NCBI GenBank assembly: GCA_021805775.1
Contig: JAJZED010000016.1
Coordinates: forward strand, 1-51,160
Source: a bacterium
GTDB lineage: Bacteria; Vulcanimicrobiota; Vulcanimicrobiia; Vulcanimicrobiales; Vulcanimicrobiaceae
DNA: 51,160 bases
Direction: 5' to 3'
Position numbers and translations under genes: made by a program. Of this stretch, positions 304 to 42,800 are shown one piece after another (the stretch's first letter is position 1; the number at the start of each line of letters is the position of its first letter). The notes beneath the pieces are model-generated. The model did not search any database. It was not told the origin of the DNA and was given only the letters and a program-made list of their open reading frames with translations.

Positions 304-2568
304 ATGTGGTACCGTACGATCCTCGCGGCGGCGTTCTTCGGGCTCGCATGCACCGCCGCGGCGCCTTCGGGCGGGCATCGACTGCCGAATTCTTGGCACC
401 TGCTCCCAGTCGGCGCAAGCGTCGGCGTGGGAACGATGCCGCAGGGCATCGCGCTCTCGCCCGGCGGCACGCGCATCGCGGTGCTCGACGCCGGCGCCGC
501 GCCGGCATCGTTGCACATCCTCAACGGCGCCTCGCTTCGCTCGCTTCGCGTCGTGCAACTTCCCGACGCTTTCGGTACCCCGATCTGGCTCGACCGCCGA
601 ACGGTCGCTATCGCCGGGGGCAAGAGCGACGCAATCCTCCGCATCGATCTTCGCAGCGGGAAGATCGCGACGCTCGGCTCGCTCGGTAGCGGTAGTTGGT
701 GCGCTGCGGTCGCGCTCTCGCCGCATCGGCGACGGCTCGCCGCTATCGGGGACCGAAGCGGTCGCGTCGTCGTCTTCGATATACACGGTAAAACGCTCTG
801 GAGCGCGCCCGTCGGCGCCCACCCCTCGGCACTCGCCTTCGCGCCCGACGGCAGCCTCGCCGTCCTTTCGCGCGCCTCTTCCACGATCGACTTTTTCGAT
901 CGCTCCGGGCATCGAACGATGCAGCGCGCAACCGGCGCGCACCCCGCTGCAATCGCCGTCGCTCCGAGCGGTAACACCTTCGCCGTTGCGGCGAGCGATG
1001 CCGGAGCTATCGATACCTATTCGACCCATGCGCCCTATCGTCGCATCGCCGAGATCTCGGTTGCGCCGCACTACGGCCTCGGCAATCACTTCGGGAGTTC
1101 GCCCGACGCGCTCGTTTTCGCGCCCGACGGTTCGATCGTCGTTGCGCTCGCCGGCGAGAACCAACTCGCGCTCGTGCGCGGCGGCCGTGTCGTCGCTCGC
1201 ATTCCGGTCGGTTGGTATCCCGATGCGGTTGCACTCGCAGGCAACGAACTCTACGTCGCCGACGGGAAAGGCAACGGCATGCACGCCAACCCAAATTTCC
1301 GCCCGCTCGAACGTGCAACGTACGCGCAATACGTCGCGATTCTCACCACCGGTGATCTACGCCGCATTTCCTTCGCGGATTTTCAACGCGCCGACGCACG
1401 AAGTTCTCGAGCGGTGCGCGCGTTAATACCGCCGCCGACGAAACGCTCTGCCGAAGCGATTCTTCGGGTCGGCGGGCCGATTCGCCACGTTATTTATATC
1501 ATTAAAGAAAATCGCACCTACGACCAAGTGCTCGGCGATATCAAGCGCGCGAACGGCGATGCGCGGTTGGCCTGGTTCGGAGAGCGCGTTACGCCCAATC
1601 AACATGCCATCGCGCGACGATTCGGGATCCTCGATAACGCATATACCGACGCACAGGTCAGCGCCGACGGGCATAATTGGACCGATGCCGCTTTCGCCAA
1701 CGACTATGTCGAACGTTTTTGGCCGCCGAATTACGGCGGGCGGCGATCGCTTTACGATTTTCAGAACGGAGCGAGCCCGGTGGTGCCGCAGGGCGGCTAT
1801 CTTTGGGACGATGCGCTGCGGAGCGGCGTAAGCTTTCGCGACTACGGCGAGGATACGGGCGTTCCGAAATCGACGAGCCCGACCTATCTCGCGGGAAACA
1901 TGGCTGGGTTACGCGGACATTTCGACCCTCGGTACGAGGGCTGGAACCTCAATTACAGCGATCTCCTGCGCGAGGCCGAGTGGGAGCGCGAGTTCCGTAG
2001 CTTTGTCGCCACGCATAGCCTGCCGCAGTTGGAGATCGTCTATCTTCCCAACGACCACACCGAGGCCGCGCGCGCCGGTGCGCTCACGCCGAAAGCATAC
2101 GTGGCGCAGAACGATCTCGCCGTGGGCCGGTTGATCGCTTCGCTCTCACATTCGCCCTATTGGCGCAGCACGGCGGTCTTTGTCGTCGAGGACGATGCGC
2201 AGAACGGTCCCGATCACGTTAGCGATCAACGCTCCACGTTCTACGTTGCAAGCCCTTACGCGCGCGGCGGCGTCGACGCGCAACGATACGACACCGCGAG
2301 TGTCCTGCGCTCGATCGAACTCATCCTCGGTATGAGGCCGCTCTCGATTTACGATGCATCCGCGCGGCCGCTCGATGCCGCTTTCACGCGCCGTGCGAAT
2401 TTCGCGCCCTTTAACGCCGTCGCTCCGCAAAGCAATATCGCGGCGCGCAATCCCCGCCGAGGAATAGGCGTGCGTCGTAGCGCCGCCATGAATTTCGCGA
2501 TTCCCGATGCCGTCAACCCGACCGTTGCAAACGATATTCTCTGGGATCTCTATGGAGGAAAGCGATGA
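304..2568 (+). CDS. Secreted beta-propeller / phosphoesterase (phospholipase C-AcpA superfamily) protein
   Basis: The 754-residue product starts with a lipoprotein-like signal, MWYRTILAAAFFGLAC, with a Cys at residue 16. Residues of about 40-350 form repeated blades of the YVTN/YncE type (repeated AFAPDGS and ALSPGG segments). The C-terminal half is a phosphoesterase domain (PF04185-like): it begins with IRHVIYIIKENRTYDQVLGD, followed by FGILDNAYTDAQVSADGHNW and later VFVVEDDAQNGPDHVSDQRS, the metal-binding Asp/His segments of the alkaline-phosphatase fold. The architecture matches bifunctional YncE/alkaline phosphatase family proteins, probably cell-surface phosphate-ester hydrolases; the substrate is not predictable. 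GGAGG lies almost touching the ATG at 304, so the precise start is a little uncertain. Its stop overlaps the next start (ATGA). Confidence 0.88.
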   Translation: MWYRTILAAAFFGLACTAAAPSGGHRLPNSWHLLPVGASVGVGTMPQGIALSPGGTRIAVLDAGAAPASLHILNGASLRSLRVVQLPDAFGTPIWLDRRTVAIAGGKSDAILRIDLRSGKIATLGSLGSGSWCAAVALSPHRRRLAAIGDRSGRVVVFDIHGKTLWSAPVGAHPSALAFAPDGSLAVLSRASSTIDFFDRSGHRTMQRATGAHPAAIAVAPSGNTFAVAASDAGAIDTYSTHAPYRRIAEISVAPHYGLGNHFGSSPDALVFAPDGSIVVALAGENQLALVRGGRVVARIPVGWYPDAVALAGNELYVADGKGNGMHANPNFRPLERATYAQYVAILTTGDLRRISFADFQRADARSSRAVRALIPPPTKRSAEAILRVGGPIRHVIYIIKENRTYDQVLGDIKRANGDARLAWFGERVTPNQHAIARRFGILDNAYTDAQVSADGHNWTDAAFANDYVERFWPPNYGGRRSLYDFQNGASPVVPQGGYLWDDALRSGVSFRDYGEDTGVPKSTSPTYLAGNMAGLRGHFDPRYEGWNLNYSDLLREAEWEREFRSFVATHSLPQLEIVYLPNDHTEAARAGALTPKAYVAQNDLAVGRLIASLSHSPYWRSTAVFVVEDDAQNGPDHVSDQRSTFYVASPYARGGVDAQRYDTASVLRSIELILGMRPLSIYDASARPLDAAFTRRANFAPFNAVAPQSNIAARNPRRGIGVRRSAAMNFAIPDAVNPTVANDILWDLYGGKR

Positions 2569-3281
2569 CCGGACCCGTTCTCGCCGGTACGACCTTCGCC
2601 GCCTCGGCGGTGGAATGCGTGGAGGCCGCAACGATCGTGCTCGCCGTCGCGCTAACGCGCGGTTTACGCGTTGCGTTGCTCGGAACGCTCGGCGCGTTGC
2701 TCGCGCTGGCGCTTTTCATCGCCGCGTTCGGCGCCCTGTTAGTTCGCGCGAGTGCGTTACACGGCATCGAAACGGTGGTTGGACTTTTTCTTCTTTATTT
2801 TGGCTGGAAGTGGCTCCGAAAAGCTATCTATCGCTACGCCGGGCGCATCCCCATGCGCGATGAGGCCGCAAATTTTCAACGCGATAACGAACGATTGCGC
2901 ACGACGCACGACGACCGCCTCGGCATGGCGATGGCTTTCCAAGGCGTTCTTCTGGAAGGTTTCGAGGTTGCGATCATCGTGGTCAGTTTTGCCGCCACCT
3001 CGCACGGCGCTCTCGATTGGTCGATCGGCGGCGCGGCGCTCGCCGCCGTTCTCGTAACGCTTGCCGCCGTGGTCGCGCACGGCCCGTTGACGAGCGTTCC
3101 GGAGAACGCGCTGAAATTTATCGTTGGAACGATGCTGGTATCGCTCGGCTTATTCTGGAGCGCAACCGGGCTCGGCTTCGTCTCTCCGCTCGGCGATGGA
3201 GGCATCGCCGTCTTGATCGGAGCGACGCTGCTGATTTCCTACGCGAGCATCGTTCGCCTTCGCGTCCCGAGCGGCCGCTAA
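2565..3281 (+). CDS. Polytopic membrane protein, COG4280-like (TMEM165/LysE-type fold)
   Basis: A 238-residue hydrophobic protein with six or so predicted membrane helices. Two internally related motifs, SAVECVEAATIVLAVAL near the N-terminus and LLEGFEVAIIVVSFA at about residue 130, each contain an acidic pair in a helix (E-x-x-E and E-G-F-E). Such E-x-x-D/E repeats are typical of cation/H+ exchangers of the TMEM165/GDT1 and related families and of the COG4280 predicted membrane proteins. The start ATG overlaps the phosphoesterase stop by 4 bases, implying translational coupling. A cation or small-molecule exporter is plausible; the substrate is unknown. Confidence 0.7.
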   Translation: MTGPVLAGTTFAASAVECVEAATIVLAVALTRGLRVALLGTLGALLALALFIAAFGALLVRASALHGIETVVGLFLLYFGWKWLRKAIYRYAGRIPMRDEAANFQRDNERLRTTHDDRLGMAMAFQGVLLEGFEVAIIVVSFAATSHGALDWSIGGAALAAVLVTLAAVVAHGPLTSVPENALKFIVGTMLVSLGLFWSATGLGFVSPLGDGGIAVLIGATLLISYASIVRLRVPSGR

Positions 3282-3391: not shown

Positions 3392-4699
3392 ATGGACGCA
3401 ACCGCTTCCGGTTCCAACCGCTGGGGGATCGCAATTGCAGGCATCCTCGTGATGATCTGCTTGGGAACCGTTTATTCGTGGAGTATCTTCACCAACGCGC
3501 TCATCGCCGGCTTTAATTGGTCGACGCAACAAGCGACGACACCGTTCGAAACCGCCATCTTCTTTCTCGGGCTCGGGGCCTTCATCGGAGGACGCTGGCA
3601 AGATCGCGTCGGGCCGCGCACGGTCACCATCGTCGGAGCGATCGTTTGGGGCGTCGGCGTGCTTCTCGCCGGTCTTGGAACGCAACACTTCGGCCATACG
3701 TGGATGTTGGTAACTTACGGCATTATCGGCGGTTTCGGCAACGGCATGGCGTACGTTACGCCCGTGGCGATGGTGACGAAATGGTTCCCCGATATGCGCG
3801 GACTGGGTAGCGGGCTCGTCGTGATGGGCTTCGGGCTCGGCGCGTTTTTCTACAATCAAGTGGTAACGCGCATGGCCGCTTACGCCGCGGTTGCAAAGCC
3901 GGCGCTCGCGTACGTGAAGGCACGCGATGCAGCCATTAAAGCCGGCGCTCCTTTCGACCCGACAAAATATCAGATATCGCACGATCTCATGCACGGCCTG
4001 ATGAGCATTCTTCTCGTCTCCGGAATAGTTTTTGTCGTGCTCGGCGGCATCGCGGCATTCGCGTTGAAAAATCCGCCCGAGGCGAAAACGACTGCATCCG
4101 CCGGCGGCGGCTTTACCATGGCACAGGCGTTTAAGACGCCGCAACTCTACGGCCTGTGGCTGCTGCTCTTCTTGAACGTCACTGCGGGCATCTTCGTCAT
4201 CTCCAATGCGGTGCCGATGATCAGTCAATTTGCTTCGGTCGGCATTCCGACCGCTGCGCTCTGGTATGGATTGATCGCCGTCTTCAACGGGCTCGGGCGC
4301 TTCTTTTGGGGATCGATCTCCGATCGTCTGGGTCGGAACCTCACCTACACCGTGATGTATCTCATTCAAGTCGTGATTTTCTTTACGGTGGGGCATGTCG
4401 CCGGTTTGGCCGGCGTGCTCGTCTGTTTTGCCATCGTGCTTCTCTGCTACGGCGGCGGCTTCGGCGTCATGCCGTCATTTAACGCCGATTACTTCGGCAC
4501 GGCGAATATGGGCGAAATTTACGGCTTCATTCTCACGGCCTGGGGGCTCGGCGGCGTCGTCGGCCCGGCGATCGCCGGCTTCGTACAGGATCGGACGGGG
4601 TCGTACGCCGGCGCACTCTCCGCGATTGCAATAATGCTCGTCGTCGCGGCAGCGATTCCATTCTTCATCAAAAAGCCGCAGATGTCGGCGAACGCATAA
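3392..4699 (+). CDS. MFS transporter, oxalate/formate antiporter (OFA) family
   Basis: A 435-residue, 12-helix major facilitator. The open frame extends upstream, but the ATG at 3392 has an AAGGAGAG ribosome site about 5 bases before it and gives the normal N-terminus, MDATASGSNRWGIAIAGILVM. Family signs are CLGTVYSWSIF in helix 1, GGRWQDRVGPRTV in loop 2-3, GGFGNGMAYVTPVAM in helix 4, KWFPDMRGLGSG before helix 5 and GSISDRLGR in loop 8-9. These match the OFA family, whose founder OxlT exchanges oxalate for formate. It lies 24 bases before the formate dehydrogenase gene and in the same direction, so formate (or oxalate/formate) is the likely substrate. Members with other carboxylates exist. 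Confidence 0.85.
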   Translation: MDATASGSNRWGIAIAGILVMICLGTVYSWSIFTNALIAGFNWSTQQATTPFETAIFFLGLGAFIGGRWQDRVGPRTVTIVGAIVWGVGVLLAGLGTQHFGHTWMLVTYGIIGGFGNGMAYVTPVAMVTKWFPDMRGLGSGLVVMGFGLGAFFYNQVVTRMAAYAAVAKPALAYVKARDAAIKAGAPFDPTKYQISHDLMHGLMSILLVSGIVFVVLGGIAAFALKNPPEAKTTASAGGGFTMAQAFKTPQLYGLWLLLFLNVTAGIFVISNAVPMISQFASVGIPTAALWYGLIAVFNGLGRFFWGSISDRLGRNLTYTVMYLIQVVIFFTVGHVAGLAGVLVCFAIVLLCYGGGFGVMPSFNADYFGTANMGEIYGFILTAWGLGGVVGPAIAGFVQDRTGSYAGALSAIAIMLVVAAAIPFFIKKPQMSANA

Positions 4700-4723
4700 A
4701 CAGAGAAACGCAAGGGGAAACGT

Positions 4724-7700
4724 ATGGCGAAAACGACGATCGATATTACCGGGCTTACGAACGTTCGCGGAACGCGTTCGTCACTCGAAGAACGTATCGG
4801 TGACTTGCCGAACGTCGCATCGCAGCGTACCCGAGAGTTGCGCGCTCGCATCGACGGCGCAAAGGCGGTCACCAGCGTGTGTCCGTACTGCGCCGTCGGT
4901 TGCAGCACGCTTGCCTACGTCGACGAATCCGGCAAATTACTCGACGTCGAAGGCAACCCCGATAGCCCGATCAATGCCGGTCACCTCTGCCCCAAGGGCT
5001 CGGCGATCTTCGGTATGACCGTCAACGATCGGCGTTGGACGACGGTTCACTATCGGGCGCCCTTTGCAACGGAATGGGAGGAGCGGCCGCTCTCCTGGGC
5101 GCTCGAGCGCATCGCCGCGCGCGTGAAGGAGACGCGCGACGCCACCTTCGTGAAAGAGCGCGACGGGAAACGCCTCAATCACACGCTGGGAATCGCCTCG
5201 CTCGGCGGCGCCACATTCGGAATCGAGGAAAATTATCTCCTCGGAAAACTCATGCACGGCCTCGGCGTCGTCGCGATTGAAAACCAAGCACGAATATGAC
5301 ACTCCTCGACGGTGCCCGGTCTGGGCACCTCGTTCGGTCGCGGCGGCGCAACGGTCTGGCTCCCCGATCTGGAGAATGCCGATTGCATTCTCATTCAAGG
5401 TTCGAATTTCGCCGAAGCGCACCCGGTGGCGTTCCGGTTTGTCATGAAGGCCAAGGAGCGCGGTGCGACAATCGTTCACGTCGACCCGCGTTTCACGAGA
5501 ACCTCGGCCGTTGCCGATCTCTACGCGCCGATTCGCAGCGGAACCGATATCGCTTTCCTAGGCGGCATCATTCGCTATATTCTTGAGAACGAACGTTATT
5601 TCAAAGAGTATGTCGCTGCGTATACTAACGCGAGTTCGATCGTCAGCGAGGGCTTTGTCGATACCGAAGAGCTCGACGGTATGTTCTCCGGCTGGAACGC
5701 CGAAACGAGCTCCTACGATACCTCGACCTGGAGTTTCGAACGAAACGACGATGGAACGCTCCGCCGCGATGAATCCTTTCAACACCCGCGTTGCGTTCTC
5801 AACGTTCTGCGTCGACATTTTTCGCGCTACACGCCGGAGATGGTCGAGCGCGTTTGTGGAACGCCGCAGAAACAATTCTTAAAAATCGCCGAGTTGCTGG
5901 CGAAGAACAGCGGCCGAGAACGCACCACGGCATTTGCCTATGCAGTCGGCTGGACGCAGCATACGACCGGCGTGCAATTCGTCAGAACCGCAGCAATTCT
6001 GCAACTCTTGCTCGGTAATATCGGTCGGCCCGGCGGCGGCATCATGGCCCTGCGCGGTCACGCCGATATTCAAGGCGCTACCGACGTGCCCACGCTCTAC
6101 GATCTCCTGCCCGGCTATCTTCCGATGCCGTCGGCGCTGCGCGACGAACAGACGCTGGAGCGATACTTGGCGCAAAATACGAAGCGGACCGGTTGGTGGG
6201 CGAACACACCGAATTATGTCGTGTCGTTACTCAAGGCATACTATGGCGATGCCGCGCGCGCGGAGAACGAGTTTTGTTACGCCTATCTACCGCAGCTCGT
6301 CGGCGACCATTCGGTGCTGCCGACGACCTTCGCAATGAAAGACGGGTCGGTCAAAGGCTACTTTGTGATCGGGCAAAACCCGGGAGCATCGGGGCAGAAC
6401 GCAGAGCTCGTCAGTTCGGCGATGGAGCGCTTGGATTGGCTGGTCAACATCGATTTCTTCGATAACGAGACGGTCTCGTTCTGGCGGCGCGAGGGCGCCG
6501 ACCCGACGAAGATCGGCACGGAGGTTTTCTTTCTTCCCGGAGCGACCGTCCTCGAGAAGGAAGGGACGATGACGCAAACCTCACGCGTGCTTCAGTGGCA
6601 CGACAAGGCGATCGAACCGCTCGGTGATTCGAAGAGCGATCTCTGGTATTTCTACGACCTTGGAAAACGGCTCAAAGCACTCTACAGCGCTTCGCCGGAT
6701 CCCAAGGACCGACCGATTCTCGACATGACCTGGGATTACGATCCCGACGACGAACGCGAACGCGCCTCCGGCGAACCGTCGGCGTTGCGCGTCCTCCGCG
6801 AGATCAATGGTTTTACCGTCGCCGACGGACGCCAGATTGCGGGTTTTGCCGACCTTGCCGATGACGGCAGCACGGCGAGCGGATGCTGGATCTACTCCGG
6901 CGTCTGCCCGGATGAAAAAACAAATCGCGCGCGCGGCCGAGTCGCCGATGGAATAAGTTCTCCGGGATGGGGATGGGCGTGGCCCGCGAATCGACGGACG
7001 CTCTACAATCGTGCCTCTGCGGACCCCGCCGGCGTTCCGTGGAGCGATCGCAAAAAATATATCTGGTGGGACGCACGGAAGCAGGAGTGGACCGGCGACG
7101 ATGTCCCCGATTTCCCGAAGGGGAAGAACCCCGCGACTCCCGCACGTGCCGGGGCAAGCGGCATCGAGGCGCACTCCGGTGCCGACCCGTTCATTATGAA
7201 CCTCGACGGGCGCGGGCAGCTCTTCGTTGCGGGTGCGCTCGTCGACGCTCCGCTCCCCGTCCATTACGAGCCGCTGCAATCGGTCATCGAGAACCCACTC
7301 TACCCGCAACAGAGTAATCCGTTGCTGCGCGAATGGAAACGCGACGATAACCGCTACAACCGCGCGGTCGATCCCGATTTCCCTTACGTGCTCACGACCT
7401 ATCGAATAACGGAGATGTCGGGAATCATGACGCGCTACATTCCGTGGCTCGCGGAGCTTCAGCCCGAGGCGTTCTGCGAGATCGATCCCGAACTCGCCGT
7501 CGAGAAGGGCATCGCCAACGGCAGTTACGTCACGATATCGACGGCGCTCGGCGAGATGGAGGCGCGCGCGTTGGTAAGCGGACGAATGCAACCGCTACGC
7601 ATCGGAAAGGGCCGGCGCATACACCAGATCGGCATTCCGTATAACTACGGACGCATGGTCGGGTTCGCGCGCGGCGATTCACCCGGAGGGCTCATCGCGC

Positions 7701-7876
7701 TTTCGATGGATCCAAACGTTTCCATCCACGAAGCAAAATCGCTCACCTGTTCTATCCGCCCCGGACGACGAGCGACGCATGCGGCGGGAACGATCGAGGC
7801 TCCGGTTCCCGACGTACAACGACGCGCCTTCGGGGCCGGAGCGGCACACGGAATTGACGCGGGAGAGACACGATAA
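4724..7876 (+). CDS. fdhA: Formate dehydrogenase catalytic subunit, selenocysteine-containing (read through UGA at 5297)
   Basis: The gene is continuous from the ATG at 4724 (AAGGGGAAA upstream) to 7876, 1,050 residues, if the in-frame TGA at 5297-5299 is decoded as Sec192. Both sides of that codon are typical of molybdenum/tungsten formate dehydrogenase: VAIENQARI before it and HSSTVPGLGTSFGRGG after it. Residues 53-90 carry the [4Fe-4S] ligands C-x2-C-x3-C and GHLCPKG. Further bis-MGD-binding segments follow (GNIGRPGGGIMALRGH, FVIGQNPGASGQN). The enzyme oxidises formate to CO2. It is of the FdnG/FdoG type, but the N-terminus (MAKTTIDITGLTNVRG) shows no twin-arginine signal, so it probably works in the cytoplasm. 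It heads an operon with fdhB, an NrfD anchor and fdhD. Any automated call that stops at 5299 or starts at 5312 splits it wrongly. Confidence 0.95.
5297..5329 (+). promoter_or_regulatory. Bacterial SECIS element directing selenocysteine insertion
   Basis: Directly after the UGA (5297-5299) the mRNA can form a 7-bp perfect stem, GGTGCCC (5311-5317) with GGGCACC (5323-5329), closing a GGTCT loop (5318-5322). The GGUCU apical loop is that of the Escherichia coli fdhF/fdnG SECIS, and as I recall the E. coli sequence the spacing from UGA to the loop (18 bases after the stop codon) is the same. Bacterial SelB binds this loop. No selA, selB, selC or selD gene is visible in the window, so these must lie elsewhere. 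Confidence 0.93.
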
Positions 7877-8739
7877 TGGCCACGGGGTTCTTTACCGACG
7901 CGACGCTTTGCATCGGTTGCAAAGCCTGCGAAGTCGCCTGTAAGCAGTGGAACGAATTGCCCTCCGACGGTTTTGAATTCACCGGCAATTCTTACGATAA
8001 TACCAGCCAACTTTCGGGGACGACCTGGCGGCACGTCGATTTTGTCGAACGCGAATCGATCGACGAGAACGGAATCACCGCGAGCTGGTCGATGTTAAGC
8101 GACGTTTGCAAGCATTGCACGAACGCCGGGTGTTTGGAGGCATGCCCGACCGGCGCAATCGTTCGCAACGAATTCGGCAGCGTCTTCGTACAGCCCGATA
8201 TCTGTAACGGCTGCGGCTATTGCGTGGTGTCGTGCCCATTCGGCGTTATCGATCTTATCGAAGCGGTCGGAAACGGCGACGACGCTGGGAAATACGCCCT
8301 CGCTACCCTGCACGAAGATCGCCTCAACGACCGGAAAACTGCGCTTCAAGCAACCGGTGGAGTTGCCGGCAAATGTACGCTCTGTTACGACCGTCAGCGC
8401 ATCGGTATGGTGCCGGCGTGCGCGAAAGCCTGCCCAACCGAGTCGATTCAATTCGGCGAAATCGAGGAACTTCGCGAGCGCGCGAAACGCCGCGTCGAAA
8501 CCTTACTCGAGCGCGGCGTCGATGCGCGCCTCTACGGCGCCGACGATGTCGGCGGCGGTATCGGTTCCCTCAACGCGTTCTTTCTGCTCGCCGATAGCCC
8601 CGAGGCATACAATCTGCCCGTCGAACCGGTGCTCCCTTCGACGCGACAAGCGATGGGATACGCGGCGGCGGCCGCGGCGGCGTTGGCGCTGGCGACGCTC
8701 GGCTGGGCGATCTTTCGCGGAGACGGTACCGACGCATGA
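7876..8739 (+). CDS. fdhB: Formate dehydrogenase iron-sulfur (beta) subunit
   Basis: 287 residues with four [4Fe-4S] cysteine groups: CIGCKACEVACKQWN (from residue 15), CKHCTNAGCLEACP, CNGCGYCVVSCP and CTLCYDRQ...CAKACP. The pattern is that of FdnH/FdoH, which pass electrons from the catalytic subunit to the membrane partner. A hydrophobic alanine/leucine-rich helix near residues 262-280 is a C-terminal membrane anchor, as in FdnH. The ATG shares its first base with the last base of the fdhA stop codon (TAATG), so translation is coupled. No separate promoter is evident. Confidence 0.93.
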   Translation: MATGFFTDATLCIGCKACEVACKQWNELPSDGFEFTGNSYDNTSQLSGTTWRHVDFVERESIDENGITASWSMLSDVCKHCTNAGCLEACPTGAIVRNEFGSVFVQPDICNGCGYCVVSCPFGVIDLIEAVGNGDDAGKYALATLHEDRLNDRKTALQATGGVAGKCTLCYDRQRIGMVPACAKACPTESIQFGEIEELRERAKRRVETLLERGVDARLYGADDVGGGIGSLNAFFLLADSPEAYNLPVEPVLPSTRQAMGYAAAAAAALALATLGWAIFRGDGTDA

Positions 8740-9656
8740 AAAGCTACTACGATCGTCCGCTGCTCAAAGGACCGCACTGGGGTTCGAACGTCGTGACCTA
8801 CCTCTTCCTCGGCGGAATCATGGGCGGCCTCGGCCTCATCTCTTTGCTCTCCGACGATCGGCCGGAGCCGGAGATGAAAAAGTTGCGCAAGGCGACTCGC
8901 TACACGGCGTTTGCGTTGGCGGCGATCAATCCGCCGATCCTCATCTCTCACCTCGGGCGCCCGGAACGATTCTTAAACATGCTGCGCATCGTCAAATTCA
9001 AATCGCCGATGTCGCTTGGGGTCTGGGGGCTCGTTCTTTACTCCGGCGCCGCCGGCGCGAATGCGCTGCGCGAGCTCGCCGATGACGGTGTCGTTCCGAG
9101 GATGCTGAAGTTTGTCGCCCCGAGCGCAACGGTGCCGATTCAGGCGCTCTTGGGAGCGTTCATGGCCGGATATACCGGCGTCCTCATCAGCGCGACGGCG
9201 ATTCCTCTCTGGGCTGCGGGGAAACGCCACATTCCGGCCTTCTCCGTCTGCTCCGGTGCCGCGAGTGCAAGCGCGCTCGCGACGCTGCTATCGACGCTTC
9301 AAGGAAATCACGACGTCATTCCGCGCCTCGAACGCCTCGAAATGGCCGCAGCGGCGCTGGAGATCGCGCTCGTCGCGGATTTTCGCAAGCGCGGCGGTGC
9401 CGTTACCGCCCCCTTGTTCGAAGGGCGCGTCGGCAAGCGCCTTCGCGACTTCACCATTATCGGAGGAATCGTCGTGCCGTTTGCCTTGAATGCAATCGGC
9501 GGAGCTTTCAAACTCCCGAAATCGATCGATGCGTTGCGCAGCATCGCTGCTGCAACTCTAACGCTCGTCGGCGGATACGTATTGCGCGAAAGCCTGATCG
9601 AGGCCGGCAAACTCTCCGCAAACGATCCGCACGTCGCGTTCAGACAGCCTTCGTGA
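8736..9656 (+). CDS. NrfD/PsrC-type membrane anchor subunit of the formate dehydrogenase
   Basis: 306 residues, strongly hydrophobic, with about eight or nine membrane helices. The start, MKSYYDRPLLKGPHWGSNVVTYLFLGGIMGG, and SHLGRPERFLNMLRIVKFKSPMS at about 70-95 are characteristic of NrfD/PsrC-family quinone-interacting subunits. This family replaces the cytochrome b subunit (FdnI) in many formate dehydrogenases and has no heme. It would accept electrons from FdhB and reduce menaquinone or ubiquinone. Its ATG overlaps the fdhB stop (ATGA), and its own stop overlaps fdhD (GTGA). Confidence 0.85.
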   Translation: MKSYYDRPLLKGPHWGSNVVTYLFLGGIMGGLGLISLLSDDRPEPEMKKLRKATRYTAFALAAINPPILISHLGRPERFLNMLRIVKFKSPMSLGVWGLVLYSGAAGANALRELADDGVVPRMLKFVAPSATVPIQALLGAFMAGYTGVLISATAIPLWAAGKRHIPAFSVCSGAASASALATLLSTLQGNHDVIPRLERLEMAAAALEIALVADFRKRGGAVTAPLFEGRVGKRLRDFTIIGGIVVPFALNAIGGAFKLPKSIDALRSIAAATLTLVGGYVLRESLIEAGKLSANDPHVAFRQPS

Positions 9657-10501
9657 CCGAATTTTCGACGCGTCCGGGGCGTAGCACCGACGTAACGACC
9701 GTAACCATCGACGAGGGACTTTCCAAGCAACACATCGACCGCGTCGCCGTCGAAGAACCGTTGGAGATACGACTGCTCGCAGGGACGGAGCGGCGTTCGC
9801 TCGTGCTGACGATGAGGACGCCGGGGCACGATTTCGAACTCGCAGCAGGCTTCCTGTTCAACGAAGGAATCGTTAAATCGTGCGACGAGATCCTCGGCAT
9901 CTCCTACTGTCTCGACGCCGATATCGAGCAAACGCAGCAATATAACATCGTCAACGTGCAGCTGCGCGCGCCGTCGCTCCCGGATTTGAGCGCATATACG
10001 CGCCTGTTTTCCGGATACGGTGCGTGCGGTATCTGCGGGCGCGAGAGCATCGACGCTTTGGAAGCGCGCGGGCTCGATATCATCGATGATTCGACGACGG
10101 TCGCTCCCGATATCCTCTACGAACTGCCAGAACGCATGCGCGCCGCGCAACCGATCTTCGAACGAACCGGCGGTTTGCACGCTACGGCGCTCTTCAACGC
10201 CTCGGGAGAACTCCTCGTTCTTCGCGAGGATATCGGCCGCCACAACGCTTTCGATAAAATCGTCGGCGAGGCGTTTCTTTCCGATAAATTGCCGTTGAAG
10301 GGACGCATCGCGCTGGTGAGCGGGCGCGCGAGTTTCGAACTGGTGCAAAAGGCTATCGCAGCGCAGATTCCCATCATTGCGTCGATCTCGGCCCCCAGCA
10401 GCCTCGCCGTCGATCTCGGCAGGCGTTTTGGAATAACGCTGGTCGGTTTTCTGCGCGGTCGCAGAGCAAACGTCTACGCCGCAGGGGAACGCGTGCGCTA
10501 A
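9653..10501 (+). CDS. fdhD: Sulfur carrier protein FdhD, required for formate dehydrogenase activity
   Basis: 282 residues. FdhD transfers sulfur from a cysteine desulfurase to the Mo/W-bis-MGD cofactor before it is inserted into formate dehydrogenase. Diagnostic blocks are VEEPLEIRL near residue 30, the T-P-G-H-D-F-E-L-A-A-G-F-L-F-x-E-G motif at about 55-75, the sulfur-carrying CxxC in YGACGICGRES, LHATALF, EDIGRHNAFDKIVG and SGRASFELVQKA. The GTG start at 9653 overlaps the previous stop by 4 bases. Its presence directly in the operon strongly supports the upstream gene being a working Mo/W-dependent formate dehydrogenase. Confidence 0.94.
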   Translation: MTEFSTRPGRSTDVTTVTIDEGLSKQHIDRVAVEEPLEIRLLAGTERRSLVLTMRTPGHDFELAAGFLFNEGIVKSCDEILGISYCLDADIEQTQQYNIVNVQLRAPSLPDLSAYTRLFSGYGACGICGRESIDALEARGLDIIDDSTTVAPDILYELPERMRAAQPIFERTGGLHATALFNASGELLVLREDIGRHNAFDKIVGEAFLSDKLPLKGRIALVSGRASFELVQKAIAAQIPIIASISAPSSLAVDLGRRFGITLVGFLRGRRANVYAAGERVR

Positions 10502-10551: not shown

Positions 10552-11505
10552 GTGGAGCGCAACCGGGAACCCTCGTTCTCCTCCTTCGACCGCGAGCGCC
10601 GCTCGCCCGACGTGCTTTCGCGCGCACTAGAGGAAGCGCGATTTCGCTCGTTCTTCACGCATAACGTCGACTCCATAGCATTTTTAGGGATCGAAGGAGA
10701 GGTTCTTCAGGCAAATTTGATGTTTGAGGAAATGCTCGAACTCGCTCCCAATGAAGCGACATCGATATCTTTTTTCGAATACTTGGAACCGATAGCAGAG
10801 CCCGAGGCTCGCGAGGCGTTTAGTCAAACGCTCATCGGAGAGACGCAGGAGTTCGACGGCCTTCTTCGAGCATCGGGCGAGATATCGTCGATACCCGTTC
10901 GCATTCGCTTTACTCCGCTCCGGATAGAAGACGAAATGATCGGCGTCTCGGCGATCGTGAAGAATATCGCCGCCGAACGCATCGCTCACCAACACCTGCA
11001 CAACCTTGCCTTTTACGATCCGCTCACGCGTTTGCCGAATCGAGCGCTCTTCGGAGATCGTCTCGCACAGACGATTGCGGGAGCGAAGCGTTATAACCGC
11101 CCCTTTGCCCTTTCATTTCTCGATTTAGACGGATTCAAAAACGTAAATGACGTGCACGGACACGCTGCGGGAGACGCCCTGCTGCGTGCCTTCGGCGAGC
11201 GTCTCGCTGTGATTTTGCGCGAAAGCGACACGTTCGCTCGTCTCGGCGGCGATGAATTTGCCGTACTCCAACAGGTGACAAGCATCCCCGAAGATGCCGC
11301 CGCGCTCGCGCAGAAACTCATCGAAGCTCTTCACGAACCATTTCTTATCGACGGAGCGGAACTAAAAGTGGGCCTAAGCATCGGCGTCGCGGTCTATCCG
11401 TGGCACGGTATCGGCGAATCTTCGCTGCTCGAAGCTGCGGATAAAGCTCTTTACGAAGCAAAATCTTCCGGGAAAAACACCTTCCGCTTCGCGGGACCGT
11501 TTTAG
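10552..11505 (+). CDS. PAS domain diguanylate cyclase (GGDEF)
   Basis: 317 residues starting at GTG 10552. Residues of about 25-145 form a PAS domain (FFTHNVDSIAFLGIEGEVLQ to ISAIVKN-like end). A GGDEF domain follows from about 155 (AFYDPLTRLPNRALFGDRL), with the intact catalytic motif LGGDEF at 232-236. An RESD inhibitory I-site sits five residues upstream, so it should make cyclic di-GMP and be product-inhibited. There is no membrane segment, so it is a cytoplasmic sensor whose PAS ligand is unknown. It follows fdhD at a 50-base gap in the same direction. Its stop overlaps the convergent histidine kinase stop. Confidence 0.9.
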   Translation: MERNREPSFSSFDRERRSPDVLSRALEEARFRSFFTHNVDSIAFLGIEGEVLQANLMFEEMLELAPNEATSISFFEYLEPIAEPEAREAFSQTLIGETQEFDGLLRASGEISSIPVRIRFTPLRIEDEMIGVSAIVKNIAAERIAHQHLHNLAFYDPLTRLPNRALFGDRLAQTIAGAKRYNRPFALSFLDLDGFKNVNDVHGHAAGDALLRAFGERLAVILRESDTFARLGGDEFAVLQQVTSIPEDAAALAQKLIEALHEPFLIDGAELKVGLSIGVAVYPWHGIGESSLLEAADKALYEAKSSGKNTFRFAGPF

Positions 11506-14228
11506 TTCGATTCGGGAGGGGTCCCTCCGAGCAGACCATCGAGAATTCTCACCAACTCATCGGCAGTCGGCGGCCCCTCGATGTGCGCCTGCGGTTGTAA
11601 ACCTTCGTCGTTCCCTTCACCGATAGCGATGAGCGGAATGCCTCGCTCGCGCAACATCGTTTGCAGCGCCGCTGCCGCTTCGGTGCCGTCACGGAGTTGC
11701 GTGGAGAGTACCACCGCCCCGACAGGCTCGCGTTCCAACAGCGTTTCGATTTCCTCGATTTGCTCCGACATGCGAACGCGATAACCGGCCTCGCGCAGTT
11801 CGTCGGCGAGCACCAGGTTTCGTTCCCCCGCTCCAAGGAGCGCGACGGCGTGCGGGCGCAGGCTCGGTGCCGGAGCGAGCGGCAGGCGCACCGTAACGGT
11901 CGTTCCGCGCCCTTCGTCGCTGCTAATTGAAATCGTCCCGCTATGCAACCGCACGAGCTGCCGAGTAAGGAAGAGGCCGAATCCCGTTCCGGGTATTTTT
12001 AATTTGCGTGCATTTGAAGCTCGCGTAAATCGCTCGAACAGCAATGGTATCTCGGCTTTTGGAATACCGATTCCGTTGTCATGGACGGCAACGACGACGC
12101 CGTCCGGCTCGCGCGCAATGTCGATTTGAATTGCCTTCTCGCCCGGTGAATATTTTATAGCGTTGTCGATGAGATTCGAAAATATCTGAACGAGCCGGTC
12201 GCCGTCGCCGGTTATACTCGATGCTCCGTCGGCCGTAATTTCAATTTTCCGCCGATCGACGTATCGCACGGCAAGGTCGCGCAAGAGCGATTCGATATCG
12301 ACCTCACCGAGCGAAAGAACCAACTCGTTGCGTTCTAAGCGCGAGAGCGCGAGCGTGTCGTTTGCGAGATTTGCAAGATCGAGCGCGGCTTGCTTCATCG
12401 CCTGGGTAAAAGAACGCTGCTCGTCGGTGAGGCTGCCGACTTCGCCAAGTAGGTCGGCGAACCCGACGATCGTGGTAAGCGGACTGCGAAAATCGTGGGC
12501 GAGCATAGCGATGAGGTCGCTCTTCGTTCGGCTTAGTTCGTAGATCGCGTTACGCCGACGCTCGACCTCGCTATAGAGCGCGGTATTTCGCACCGCCACC
12601 GATACGAATTGGGCAAACAAGTCGACCAAGAAGAGATCGCGCCGCTCGAAAGGGCGCATTTCGCGATGGAGACGCAGGATGAGGTCGGAGCGGTCGCTAC
12701 GCCCGATACCCACGGCAACGTCAAAGCGATCGTCGGAGATGACGAGCCCGCGTTCTTCTTGCAACCGACGCGCCAACTCGCAAAGAAAGGGCTCTTCCTC
12801 CGCGGAAAGCGGCTTACTGCTGTCTCGCACCTCGACGACGTTGCCGTTGCTCAGCTTGGCGAGAATGCGCCCCGTCGCTCCTAGTACCGCCTCGGCCCCG
12901 GAGCCGACGAATTCTACGAGTTTGCGACCGTCGAGCGCGGCAACGATCTCGCGCGACGAACGCGCGAGCGCTGCTAAACGTTCGTTCTGTTCTTCGAGGC
13001 GCGCGGTTTCTTCGACTTCTTCGCTGATATCGCGTTCGACGAAGACCCAATGCGTGATGCCTCCGCGAACGTCTCGGATTGGGGTGCAAGAACGGAGCGC
13101 CCAAAAACCACTTCCGTCACGACGATAGGCGACCACCTGTTCGCGTGCCGATAACCCGGCGGCGATTGCCTCTCGCAGGCGCCGCATGCCGTCGTCATCC
13201 GGCATTGCAAACCGAAAGTCATCGAGAGCGCGCCCTACAGCATCTGCGGCTCGCCAGCCGGTCGCGCGTTCGAAGGCATCATTCAGATACATCAGTCGGA
13301 GTTGCCCGGTTTTTTCATCGACTTCGAAAATTTGCAGCATCTCGCCGGTCTCGTTCATCGCTCGTGAAAGCAAATCGAGACGGCGCCGATATCCGACCTG
13401 TTCGCTGATATCGGCCGCGATAGCAAGAATTTTTTGCTCGCCTCCGAGGCCGCTGATATCGGCACGTAACTCTACCGGAAACGAAGAACCATCGCTGCGG
13501 CGAGCCTGCGTCTCGGCTACCCATGCATGGCCGCCGCGCATGGTTTCGATAGCCGCCGCCATGCGCGATTCCGAGAGATTATCGTAGAGTTCGGCGATAT
13601 ATTTTCCATTTAACTCACGGTGGTCGTAGCCGAGATGTTTTGCAGCACCAACCGACGCAAAATTTATTCTTAAGGTTGTCGCATCAAAAGTTAGCATGTC
13701 AAGTTGCGCGGATTCGAAGAGATTATAAAATTCGCGACGCGCGTCGAGTACCGCCATGACTGCCTGCGCGAGCGCCGTTAATGCATCGCGTTGCCCATCG
13801 GTTAAGGTGCGCGGTTTTCGGTCGATAACGCAGATCGTACCCAGGTGCACCCCACCTGGAGCGACGAGCGGAAAACCGGCGTAAAAACGAATTTCAGGAT
13901 CGCCGGTGACGAGCGGATTTGCACTGAATCGAGCGTCCGCACTCGCATCTTCGATCTCTAAGGTCGTAATGCGTTCGTCGAGTGCATACGCACAGAACGC
14001 TTGGTCGCGCGGCGTCTCTCGGACCGCTAAGCCGCGTCGCGCTTTAAACCATTGCCGTTTCTCGTCAACGAGGCTGACCAACGCGATCGGCGTGTCCGCG
14101 AGCTCCGCCGCGAGGTTCACGAATGCATCGAAAATCGCTTCGTCGCCGGTATCGAGCACTTGGTAGGATTCGAGGACGCTCAAGCGCTCGCGTTCTCGAT
14201 CCTCGCTTAACGGATACGGGCTGCTCAT
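11502..14228 (-). CDS. Large GAF-PAS-PAS sensor histidine kinase with a degenerate receiver-like tail
   Basis: 908 residues, cytoplasmic (no membrane helix seen). Order: GAF at about 20-165 (beginning RLSVLESYQVLDTGDEAIFD), PAS at about 165-285, PAS at about 285-415, a diverged GAF-like segment at about 420-570, HisKA with phospho-acceptor His578 in LAHDFRSPL, HATPase with N-box NLIDNAIKYS, G1 DNGIGI and G2 GTGFGL, and a C-terminal 100 residues that fold like a receiver (HAVALLGAGERNLVLADEL) but have Ser where the phospho-Asp would be (AVVLSTQL). No partner response regulator is adjacent. It is the last gene of the minus-strand operon; its ATG overlaps the hydrolase stop (ATGA) and its stop overlaps the GGDEF stop on the other strand. 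Confidence 0.88.
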   Translation of the reverse strand: MSSPYPLSEDRERERLSVLESYQVLDTGDEAIFDAFVNLAAELADTPIALVSLVDEKRQWFKARRGLAVRETPRDQAFCAYALDERITTLEIEDASADARFSANPLVTGDPEIRFYAGFPLVAPGGVHLGTICVIDRKPRTLTDGQRDALTALAQAVMAVLDARREFYNLFESAQLDMLTFDATTLRINFASVGAAKHLGYDHRELNGKYIAELYDNLSESRMAAAIETMRGGHAWVAETQARRSDGSSFPVELRADISGLGGEQKILAIAADISEQVGYRRRLDLLSRAMNETGEMLQIFEVDEKTGQLRLMYLNDAFERATGWRAADAVGRALDDFRFAMPDDDGMRRLREAIAAGLSAREQVVAYRRDGSGFWALRSCTPIRDVRGGITHWVFVERDISEEVEETARLEEQNERLAALARSSREIVAALDGRKLVEFVGSGAEAVLGATGRILAKLSNGNVVEVRDSSKPLSAEEEPFLCELARRLQEERGLVISDDRFDVAVGIGRSDRSDLILRLHREMRPFERRDLFLVDLFAQFVSVAVRNTALYSEVERRRNAIYELSRTKSDLIAMLAHDFRSPLTTIVGFADLLGEVGSLTDEQRSFTQAMKQAALDLANLANDTLALSRLERNELVLSLGEVDIESLLRDLAVRYVDRRKIEITADGASSITGDGDRLVQIFSNLIDNAIKYSPGEKAIQIDIAREPDGVVVAVHDNGIGIPKAEIPLLFERFTRASNARKLKIPGTGFGLFLTRQLVRLHSGTISISSDEGRGTTVTVRLPLAPAPSLRPHAVALLGAGERNLVLADELREAGYRVRMSEQIEEIETLLEREPVGAVVLSTQLRDGTEAAAALQTMLRERGIPLIAIGEGNDEGLQPQAHIEGPPTADELVRILDGLLGGTPPESN

Positions 14229-15034
14229 GGCGCGGCACTTTCTTCGAGAAATTCGCGTAAGTACCGGTTAAACGCATCGGGTGCGTCGGCATTTGCGACG
14301 TGCCCCGCACCGGAGAGTTCGACCAAACGCGCGTCGGGGATTCCCGCCGCGATCTCTTCGGAGAGCGCGCGCGGTGCGATGCCGTCGCGCTCTCCGACAA
14401 GGACGAGCGTCGGAACGCCGATCGTGCCGAGATCCCCGCGATAATCGCCGGTCCAGGTGGCATGAGTCGCCGCCTCGTAAGAGGCGCGGCTCTTGCACGC
14501 CATCTGGTCGATGGTTTCGCGCTCGCGTTCCGGCGGAAGCCCGAGTTGCGCCGTTCGAGCGCGAGCGAACGTACCCATATCCCCGGCTGCGTCGACGGCT
14601 GCGAGAATTCGCCGGACGTAGTTCTCCGCATCGGGGTACTTCGCAAAACTTCCTACCAGTACGAGGCCGGCAAGTCGCTCGGGAATCCGTCGCGCGAGTT
14701 CGAACGCGACGACGCCGCCGAGACTACAACCAACGACGATCGCTTTTTCCGCGGCGATCGCATCGAGCGCGGCGATCGCATCGAGCGCATAGCCCGCACG
14801 CGTGATTGCCGTCGGTGCGGGGTCGGGGACGGCACCGTTTCCGCGAAGTTCGAGCGCCGCGCACCGCGCACGCGACGAGAGCGCGAGCAGCTGCTTCTCC
14901 CAAATTGCCGCCGTCGAACCGACGCCGTGAATGAAGAGTATCGCCGGGCCAGAAGGCCCGACGACACGAAGCCCGCTCTCAACGCCGTCTTCGCCGCGAA
15001 GAGAGAGCACCCGAATCCGAGTATTCTCACCCAT
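14225..15034 (-). CDS. Alpha/beta-fold hydrolase
   Basis: 269 residues with a complete alpha/beta-hydrolase triad: nucleophile elbow GCSLGG (Ser near residue 105), Asp in GERDGIAP and His in SGAGHVANADAP. The oxyanion-hole segment is FIHGVGST. Closest in style to 3-oxoadipate enol-lactonase/PcaD-like and esterase members, but the substrate cannot be read from the sequence. Its stop overlaps the kinase start, and it lies 23 bases downstream of the DJ-1-like gene, so it belongs to the same operon. Confidence 0.85.
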   Translation of the reverse strand: MGENTRIRVLSLRGEDGVESGLRVVGPSGPAILFIHGVGSTAAIWEKQLLALSSRARCAALELRGNGAVPDPAPTAITRAGYALDAIAALDAIAAEKAIVVGCSLGGVVAFELARRIPERLAGLVLVGSFAKYPDAENYVRRILAAVDAAGDMGTFARARTAQLGLPPERERETIDQMACKSRASYEAATHATWTGDYRGDLGTIGVPTLVLVGERDGIAPRALSEEIAAGIPDARLVELSGAGHVANADAPDAFNRYLREFLEESAAP

Positions 15035-39898: not shown

Positions 39899-42800
39899 CT
39901 AGATCGACTCCTCCAGAGCATTGAGGATCTCGCCTACGCACCCGTCGGGATCGCCGGCTATGCGGCTTCCGGTAAAAGCGAGTATCTTATAGCCGAGCTC
40001 GCGCATACGATTACGAATTCTATTATCGTTTTCAATTTGCGAAGGAGTCGTGTGATATGCATGCCCGTCAGCGTATATCGCAACACGTTGCGCTGGGAAC
40101 AGCATATCGGGCCTCGAGACGAGCTTCCCGTCTTCGGCGAAAACTTCGCCCTGTCTCTCAAATGGCGGGAGATGCCTTCGCATCGCTGCATCCAGAAGCA
40201 GCTCAATAGGCGATTCTGCTCGACGACCAGAGCCATCATCCGGCTTACTGCCCTGATGAAGTTCTCCTGGCGCCGATCTTTCAAGGGACAACTCGCGCAA
40301 CAGCGTCTCGACGAGGCGTTTATCGATCTTATCGTGGTCGCGCTGATTATAATAGTGAAGCAAGCAGGTATAACATGCGCGTACGCACGGCGGGTCATGT
40401 TGAATTATTGCGAGCGCTCGCTTCGCTATGCGCGGTAAATCACTTGCAGCGCGTCTCAAATATCCGGCTCCGCCGTTTACCGTTTCAAAAAGCGCTACGG
40501 TCGTGGGACGGTGTTCGTTCGCAAGCAGGTCGAAACCGCCAAGTTCGCCCTCATCCGCCTGAAACTCGATGCGAATTGCCGCTAAGAGCGCATGTCGGAG
40601 CGTCGTTACCTCCTCCGAACCATACGACGGCACTTCAAGAAGCAACACGTCGCTCTCAAATGCATGAGTGAGATTCGCCCGGAACTCTTTCGGTGCGTGT
40701 TTTCGCAACTTAAGATGCTTTGATTTCCAGTCATCGTGAACTTCAGGCTTCGCATCCCCGCACTCGAGGCAAAAGAGAAACGGCCGCGTGCCCCCCACTT
40801 CGCGGAGCCCGCGATTCACGGCTAGCAATGGTTGATTGCGACAATACCTCACCGTAGCGGCGTCAAATCGAAAAGTTGTTTCGGAATCCGTTTTGCCCAA
40901 GAGCGCGACATCTAGGTCGAACTGCGTTCGTCGGCGTTGTTCCTCGCTCGCGGTAATTTGGGCGTCCACCGCGCCACGGAAAGCGGTCACCTCTAAGCGC
41001 GGCTCCTCAAGTTGAGCGTCCGCGCTCCCGCACTCGGGGCAATCGCCGATCCAGGCCACCGGCGCGTGGTATCCACAAGACGAGCAACGTACATATTTCG
41101 AATCTGAGCCGGCAATAAAATCTTCCGACGATCCGCCGAGCGTGCGAACGAGATTTAGGCCGGTGCAGCGGATCTTTTTTCCATCGACGTAGACCAGCGC
41201 GCCGGGGGCAAATTCGCCGAGTGCGAGGAGCGGGTCGCGCTGAACCTCTCCATCGTCGAGGTCGCGCGAAAACAATGTCGAAGGCGTTCCAGGAAACGCA
41301 TAGCTGGGAAGAAAGCCATGGTTTGCTAGGTAACCAAGCGTATAGGCATCGTTGCCTCCGCCACGCCTCTCCCCAAAGGACGGCATCGTAAGCCCAACCA
41401 GCGTTCGTTGCATCTGCGCGCGTCGGCGATGTTCCTCGCCGGTCGGTGTTGCTAGGGCGTTGATTCGAGCGATATCGGTAGCAATTTCAACGATCTCGGC
41501 ATGCCATCCGCGCAAAACGCCAAAAAGGTCGTGTTCGAACTCATCAATTGTTTTTCCGATCGCCTCAGACGACAAACAAGCAAAGCCACGCTCCTCGCGG
41601 AAAGCGGTGACGACAGCTTCCATAATCGCAGACCGCTTCACGCGCAACTCTGCGACGGCCTCTAAATCGTTTCGCAACTTCGAGTTAATATAGTCTTCGG
41701 GGCTCGGTTTTTCGTTCCGACTGGGAATGTCGAGGAAATCGCGCATAAAACGCGGTAGCGGGCGCTCGATCTTCTCTAACGCGAGCGAGCGAATGTGTCG
41801 CCGCACAATAGTTGCGTTGTCGAGTTCGAAATGCGGAGCCGGAATGCTTCCTGCAATCATCTCCTCCGGATGGGCGACAAAATACGCGTCGTGCGGCGAG
41901 GTTTGCGCGTACGAGGAAACGATCGCAATGCGTTCGCGCCGACCCGCACGCCCGGCGCGCTGAGCGTAATTTGCCGGTGATGGCGGAAGGCCGCGGAGGA
42001 GGACGGTCGTGAGCGCACCGATATCCACGCCCAGCTCGAGGGTAGGCGATGCGACCATCACGTTAATCTTACCATCGCGAAACGCATGTTCGTATTCTTC
42101 GCGTTTAGCCCCGGAAAGCTGCCCGCTATGCTCGCGCACGTGCAACGCGATCGGCTCGGCATCGCGATACATATGCACGTAAAAGTTTTCACGATCCGGT
42201 TCCGCGGCCGAAATTAGCGTCACCCCGTCACACGTGCCGCGATAACAGCGCCCTCGGACATAACGCCAATTGATCGTTCCGCAGTTCGTGCATTGCCAAA
42301 GTTTCTCGCCCACTCGGAGCGCCATCATGCCGACGTTTGCAACGAAAACGTCGCGAAGTTTTTGATTCTGTAACGTTCCTCCAATGCTCGTCGTTTTTAT
42401 GTAGTCTTTCGCCTCAAGGATATCGACCACCATAGCGAGGGCCGATATCGCGTCGGGAATGTCGAGCCGCCGATAGAACGACTGAATAGCCGTCGCTCGC
42501 CCCTTTGAAGCGACGAATGGCCGCGCATTGGCGTAACTCGAACGAACCGGGCCCGCATTGATGCGGCGGAAACCAACCGGCCGGCGATTGTATGCATCCA
42601 CGCCGCGGACATCGTCGAGATCGTCCCAATACTGCGTCGTAAAATCATCCGACATCGCGCCTGCATGCCGAATGAAATCAAGCGTAGTTGCAAGCAACTC
42701 GAGTACGTCCTCAGCGCTTAGCCCCGGGCAAAGTGCACGCAATGCTCCAAATTTAGCATAGTCTTGCAACTCACCAAGAAAACGGTACTCTACTCCGACA

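Follow-up and report, generated by a model that had tools for sequence, protein, structure and literature searches.

The mechanism by which UGA is recoded as selenocysteine (Sec) has been known since the work on fdhF of E. coli. The closest described relatives of the protein reported here are FdnG and FdhF of E. coli, the FdhA proteins of Desulfovibrio, and the Sec-containing formate dehydrogenases (FDHs) of Actinobacterial, Ktedonobacterial and Acidobacterial origin. The Desulfovibrio FdhA enzymes are periplasmic and consist of two subunits, without an NrfD subunit. No bacterial selenoprotein family is more widely distributed than the FDH alpha subunit (PMC13188914), and the protein reported here is thus of the commonest kind of bacterial selenoprotein, found in a little-studied soil phylum.

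The window, i.e. the whole stretch of DNA that was analysed (51,160 nucleotides), belongs to a draft genome of Candidatus Eremiobacterota (2.59 Mb in 28 contigs, 95.9% complete). A first-pass annotation had proposed that it encodes a Sec-containing FDH with an in-frame UGA at position 5297, and the sequence bears this out in its reading frame, in the alignment of the Sec column, in a hairpin that is conserved and covaries, in a genome that encodes the complete Sec machinery, and in the gene order. We consider it highly probable (approximately 0.97) that the gene encodes the catalytic subunit of a Sec- and molybdopterin-dependent (Mo or W) FDH, in which a hairpin read by SelB directs the insertion of Sec192.

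Reading frame and family assignment

When UGA is translated, positions 4724–7873 of the forward strand encode 1050 residues, the only other stop being the TAA at 7874–7876. The in-frame UGA (5297–5299, +) corresponds to residue 192, the predicted Sec192, and a ribosome-binding-like AGGGG can be read 5′ of the start (4713–4717, +). Under the standard code, mechanical ORF calling returns frames of 191 (4724–5299) and 854 (5312–7876) residues, the same two proteins that standard gene callers had been expected to report; a gene catalogue that is blind to recoding therefore lists a key enzyme as two fragments.

FDH sequence is found on both flanks of the UGA, as the first-pass annotation had also stated. 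The 1050-residue protein (gene 4724–7876, +) is assigned as an FDH alpha subunit of the FdhA/FdnG type by NCBIfam, Pfam and solved FDHs. It scores above the cut-offs of NF041513 (1430.7 bits, cut-off 1400) and TIGR01553 (1012.9 bits, cut-off 814.2, residues 32–1010), and the matches to PF04879 (Molybdop_Fe4S4), PF00384 (Molybdopterin) and PF01568 (Molydop_binding) all exceed their gathering scores, so that the N-terminal 4Fe-4S motif, the molybdopterin domain and the dinucleotide-binding domain are all present. The nearest solved structures are the Sec-containing FDHs of Desulfovibrio and E. coli (E-values of 1e-242 to 1e-234). Residue 192 aligns with the Sec of 1H0H (given as X in the structure sequence) and of D. 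vulgaris FdhA, and the UGA falls in the same column as codon 196 of E. coli FdnG (Sec196) and codon 140 of FdhF (Sec140), which is the alignment that had been suggested as a check. By every sequence test the alpha gene is a predicted FdhA selenoprotein of the textbook type. No twin-arginine motif was seen when the first residues of the N-terminus were read by eye, and the enzyme may therefore face the cytoplasm.

Conservation of the UGA codon

TGA is present at the Sec column in every relative in which this column is readable, in loci from Eremiobacterota, Chloroflexota, Actinomycetota, Acidobacteriota, Bacillota, Planctomycetota and others; relatives at 90–94% identity include Candidatus Eremiobacterota MAGs. 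Class homologues that cover the region of residue 192 have one TGA there and no other stop. In comparison with locus L026, codon differences are predominantly silent on both sides of the UGA, with 52 synonymous versus 10 non-synonymous differences 5′ of it and 301 versus 53 on its 3′ side, indicating purifying selection on both parts.

These observations bear on three other explanations of the codon. Taken at face value, the two frames returned by ORF calling would agree with a genuine stop, in which case the gene would be a pseudogene or would yield two distinct products (191 and 854 residues). However, both parts are under purifying selection across the whole class, the TGA coincides with the metal-ligand residue of the catalytic domain, no second stop occurs in the matched frame of the class homologues, and the genome encodes the full Sec machinery (see below); a genuine stop is thus very improbable, and this reading was rejected on the grounds of conservation. 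A sequencing or assembly error in place of a Cys codon (TGC or TGT) might be thought of, given a draft in 28 contigs and the occurrence of Cys-containing FDH homologues in other families, but the relatives with TGA were assembled independently, and a conserved SECIS behind a mistaken TGA would be purposeless. An error of this kind, which the first-pass annotation had named as a possible refutation, is excluded by the TGA of the relatives to the point where we assign it a negligible probability. Lastly, Cys rather than Sec could be inserted at the UGA in nature, since some organisms starved of selenium are known to misload the Sec tRNA with Cys. In that case nothing would keep a Cys codon from taking the place of TGA, but no relative shows such a replacement, and we regard Cys insertion as very unlikely. 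Sec192 remains the preferred reading of the codon.

A SECIS hairpin follows the UGA

Immediately downstream of the UGA lies a SECIS hairpin (5311–5329, +; whole modelled element 5297–5341), identified by folding, a covariance model and covariation. Its stem consists of seven continuous pairs (5311–5317 with 5323–5329) capped by an apical GGUCU loop (5318–5322). Numbering from the U of UGA as nucleotide 1, the stem joins nucleotides 15–21 with 27–33, and the loop occupies nucleotides 22–26. The first-pass annotation had likened the distance of the GGUCU loop to that in fdhF and fdnG of E. coli, and the placing is indeed identical in K-12 fdhF, while fdnG has AGUCU at the same nucleotides. Bacterial SECIS elements are described as having a loop of 3–9 nt with a G in its first two positions, a stem of 4–16 bp, a distance of 16–37 nt from the UGA and a minimum free energy (MFE) of −7.5 or lower (PMC13188914). 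The window hairpin lies within all of these bounds, having a 5-nt loop with G as its first base, a 7-bp stem, 18 nt between the UGA codon and the loop, and an MFE of −20.3. The full Rfam model SECIS_3 (RF01989, positions 1–59) matches with 34 bits (E-value 3.1e-6), which is below its gathering score of 63, and no Rfam family matches at the gathering threshold anywhere in the window.

The SECIS found here departs from the E. coli element in one detail, in that U17 is not bulged. The unpaired U17 below the apical stem that marks the E. coli type is not found in the window hairpin, where U17 can pair with A31; of the 40 rows in the alignment, 29 have U-A at this pair and six have U-G, while five leave U17 unpaired. 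The bulged U is used by E. coli SelB, and recognition by SelB may therefore be slightly different in a hairpin that is without it.

Folding of the single sequence is uninformative (a dinucleotide shuffle gives an unstriking z of −0.78), and synonymous recoding and covariation were therefore used instead. Of synonymous recodings, 5.5% form a stem of the same register and 1.1% combine it with the GGUCU loop; 2.4% reach a folding energy equal to or below that observed. The register joins third codon positions with third codon positions (15–33, 18–30 and 21–27), and 45 distinct sequences from Eremiobacterota, Chloroflexota, Actinomycetota, Acidobacteriota, Planctomycetota and others were compared at these sites. 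Pair 21–27 is a standard pair in all 45 (C-G, G-C or U-A), against 64% expected from the make-up of the columns, as is pair 18–30 (G-C, U-A, C-G, G-U or U-G; 45 of 45 against 54% expected). In a 40-row alignment to which fdnG was added, the covariation score is 0.381, compared with 0.105 for shuffled alignments (none of 500 shuffles reached the observed score) and at most 0.088 for structures slid along the sequence. As these substitutions leave the amino acids unaltered, the conserved pairing can be explained by an RNA structure but not by the protein. U24 of the loop is a free third position of a Gly or Ser codon, yet it is U in 45 of 45 sequences, although in these genes GGU accounts for only 15% of the codons for Gly and AGU for 20% of AGY codons. 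In the codon alignment of the Eremiobacterota genes, codon diversity falls to its minimum at codons 195–207 (amino acid-matched resampling, p = 1e-4).

The decisive evidence for the hairpin is comparative, namely covariation at synonymous sites combined with conservation of the UGA. With stem pairs that lie on synonymous positions in both arms and that covary across phyla, this SECIS family lends itself unusually well to teaching. A covariance model built on this SECIS (R1) has a single match at E ≤ 1 in its own genome, which is the FDH hairpin itself (71.7 bits), and it also detects E. coli fdhF, a sequence outside the model, at 24.8 bits. It misses the selD hairpin of the same genome (see below), which is too different, and so R1 is no general SECIS finder.

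Selenocysteine machinery of the genome

The first-pass annotation had held that a Sec FDH implies selABCD elsewhere in the lineage, and selA, selB, selD and tRNA-Sec (selC) are all found within the same genome. On contig 3, selA (471 bits) adjoins selB (304.8 bits, including the SelB winged-helix domain). The tRNA-Sec on contig 5 scores 65.8 bits, is 94 nt in length, and has a UCA anticodon; selD, on contig 7, scores 366.5 bits. The selD gene (L018:1327–2445, −; near 250066–250989 of contig 7 of G000) itself carries an in-frame TGA at the active-site position (...SSCAGUASKL...), with the hairpin GCGCAGGUUCUGCGC on its 3′ side. SelD is therefore likely to be a second selenoprotein of this genome.

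Readthrough in selD as well as in the FDH gene is what a genome-wide reassignment of UGA to Cys or Trp would also produce. However, TGA ends four other genes of the window (304–2568, 7876–8739, 8736–9656 and 14225–15034), most of which overlap the start of the next gene, so that UGA is recoded by context and not reassigned. Moreover, the tRNA with a UCA anticodon is the 94-nt tRNA-Sec, and both genes with an in-frame UGA belong to classic Sec families. A change of code was rejected on the basis of the TGA-ended genes and the tRNA-Sec, and we consider its chances vanishingly small next to those of Sec recoding.

Gene order and predicted function

The FDH gene stands second in a row of genes on the forward strand, in the order transporter, alpha, beta, NrfD, FdhD. 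The first gene (3392–4699, +) encodes an MFS transporter of the lactate or oxalate-formate antiporter group (NF049980, 329.4 bits, cut-off 320; TIGR00890, 210 bits, below cut-off); its frame is open from 3017, and the ATG at 3392 is the likely start. Behind the alpha gene follow a 287-residue FDH beta subunit, 4Fe-4S ferredoxin-like (7876–8739, +; TIGR01582, 164 bits, below the cut-off of 334.7), and a 306-residue NrfD-like membrane subunit (8736–9656, +; PF03916, 69.9 bits), both being putative assignments from general families. The row ends with the 282-residue FDH accessory sulfurtransferase FdhD (9653–10501, +; NF001943, 282 bits, cut-off 269; PF02634, 217 bits).

The families of these proteins and of the Sec machinery suggest how Sec insertion, catalysis, the electron route and the direction of the reaction would proceed. 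SelD would supply selenophosphate, with which SelA would make Sec-tRNA-Sec. Once the ribosome arrives at the UGA at 5297, SelB with GTP and Sec-tRNA-Sec would bind the GGUCU-capped hairpin just downstream of this codon, and this complex would place Sec at residue 192. The transporter may take up formate or a related acid. As a ligand of the metal (Mo or W), Sec192 would share in the oxidation of formate to CO2, and the electrons would travel through the Fe-S subunit, reach the membrane subunit of NrfD type and from there probably enter the quinone pool. As far as sequence can settle it, a soil lineage decodes UGA as Sec and would need selenium for formate oxidation.

Several other genes of the window can be described. 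Just 5′ of the FDH row, a 238-residue protein (2565–3281, +) has a weak match (31 bits) to the OFeT_1 iron/lead permease family, and ahead of it lies a 754-residue member of a phosphoesterase family with beta-propeller-like repeats (304–2568, +). Directly behind the row (10552–14228) are a PAS-GGDEF diguanylate cyclase and a convergent GAF-PAS-histidine kinase. On the reverse strand, 39899–44998 encodes a 1699-residue DEAD-box helicase with the MrfA Zn-binding domain (MZB), which is longer than expected for MrfA.

Distribution in the class and phylum

An FDH homologue is found in 72 of the 117 genomes of the class. At strict thresholds, 71 of these 72 genomes have selB or tRNA-Sec, the exception (G107) being 83% complete and carrying a selD with TGA. 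Both selB and tRNA-Sec are absent from 16 of the 45 genomes that do not encode the FDH, and Fisher's test on the association between FDH and Sec machinery gives p = 4e-7 (on raw genome counts that ignore kinship). These 16 include all eight genomes of genus g41 (G096–G103), which are thus without FDH, selB and tRNA-Sec, and this suggests joint loss of the FDH and the Sec trait. In the phylogenetic tree, the FDH rows of the Eremiobacterota form one group with support of 92/93 (just under the starred level), and deeper forks are weakly supported; as the Eremiobacterota FDHs are a single group, nothing indicates that the gene was imported recently.

Nine genomes of the class (G023, G035, G036, G037, G038, G041, G049, G056 and G094) have selB and tRNA-Sec, no FDH match, and a SelD without TGA. 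Unless their assemblies miss the FDH, these organisms should hold other selenoproteins. No selenoprotein report was found in literature on Eremiobacterota or WPS-2 combined with selenocysteine or selenium, which, from mostly non-subscription literature, is weak evidence that Eremiobacterota have not earlier been reported as Sec-decoding. The broader proposal, to which we give somewhat less than even odds, is that Eremiobacterota are a broadly Sec-decoding phylum that is undescribed as such, and that its FDH-less members (those with selB and tRNA-Sec and with a SelD that has no UGA) hold further, possibly unknown, selenoproteins.

Comparison with known systems

The protein is of the same family (TIGR01553 above cut-off) and length class as FdnG of E. 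coli FDH-N (1KQF, Sec196), with Sec in the common motif NQAR[VI]UH and an apical loop equally far from the UGA. The two differ in that fdnG is followed by FdnH and then FdnI, a cytochrome b, in whose place an NrfD-type subunit is found here, and in the SECIS stem, which here is a continuous 7 bp without the bulged U17. FdhF (Sec140) has the identical UGACAC start as well as a GGUCU loop at nucleotides 22–26, but it is shorter (715 residues), and its SECIS has an unpaired U17. The best matches among solved structures are the Desulfovibrio FdhA proteins, i.e. the W-FDH 1H0H and D. vulgaris FdhAB (E-values of 1e-242 and 1e-240), in which Sec occupies the aligned column. The Actinobacterial, Ktedonobacterial and Acidobacterial Sec-FDHs (NF041513) are 49–56% identical to the protein over most of its length and have TGA at the same codon followed by the same hairpin, while forming separate branches of the tree.
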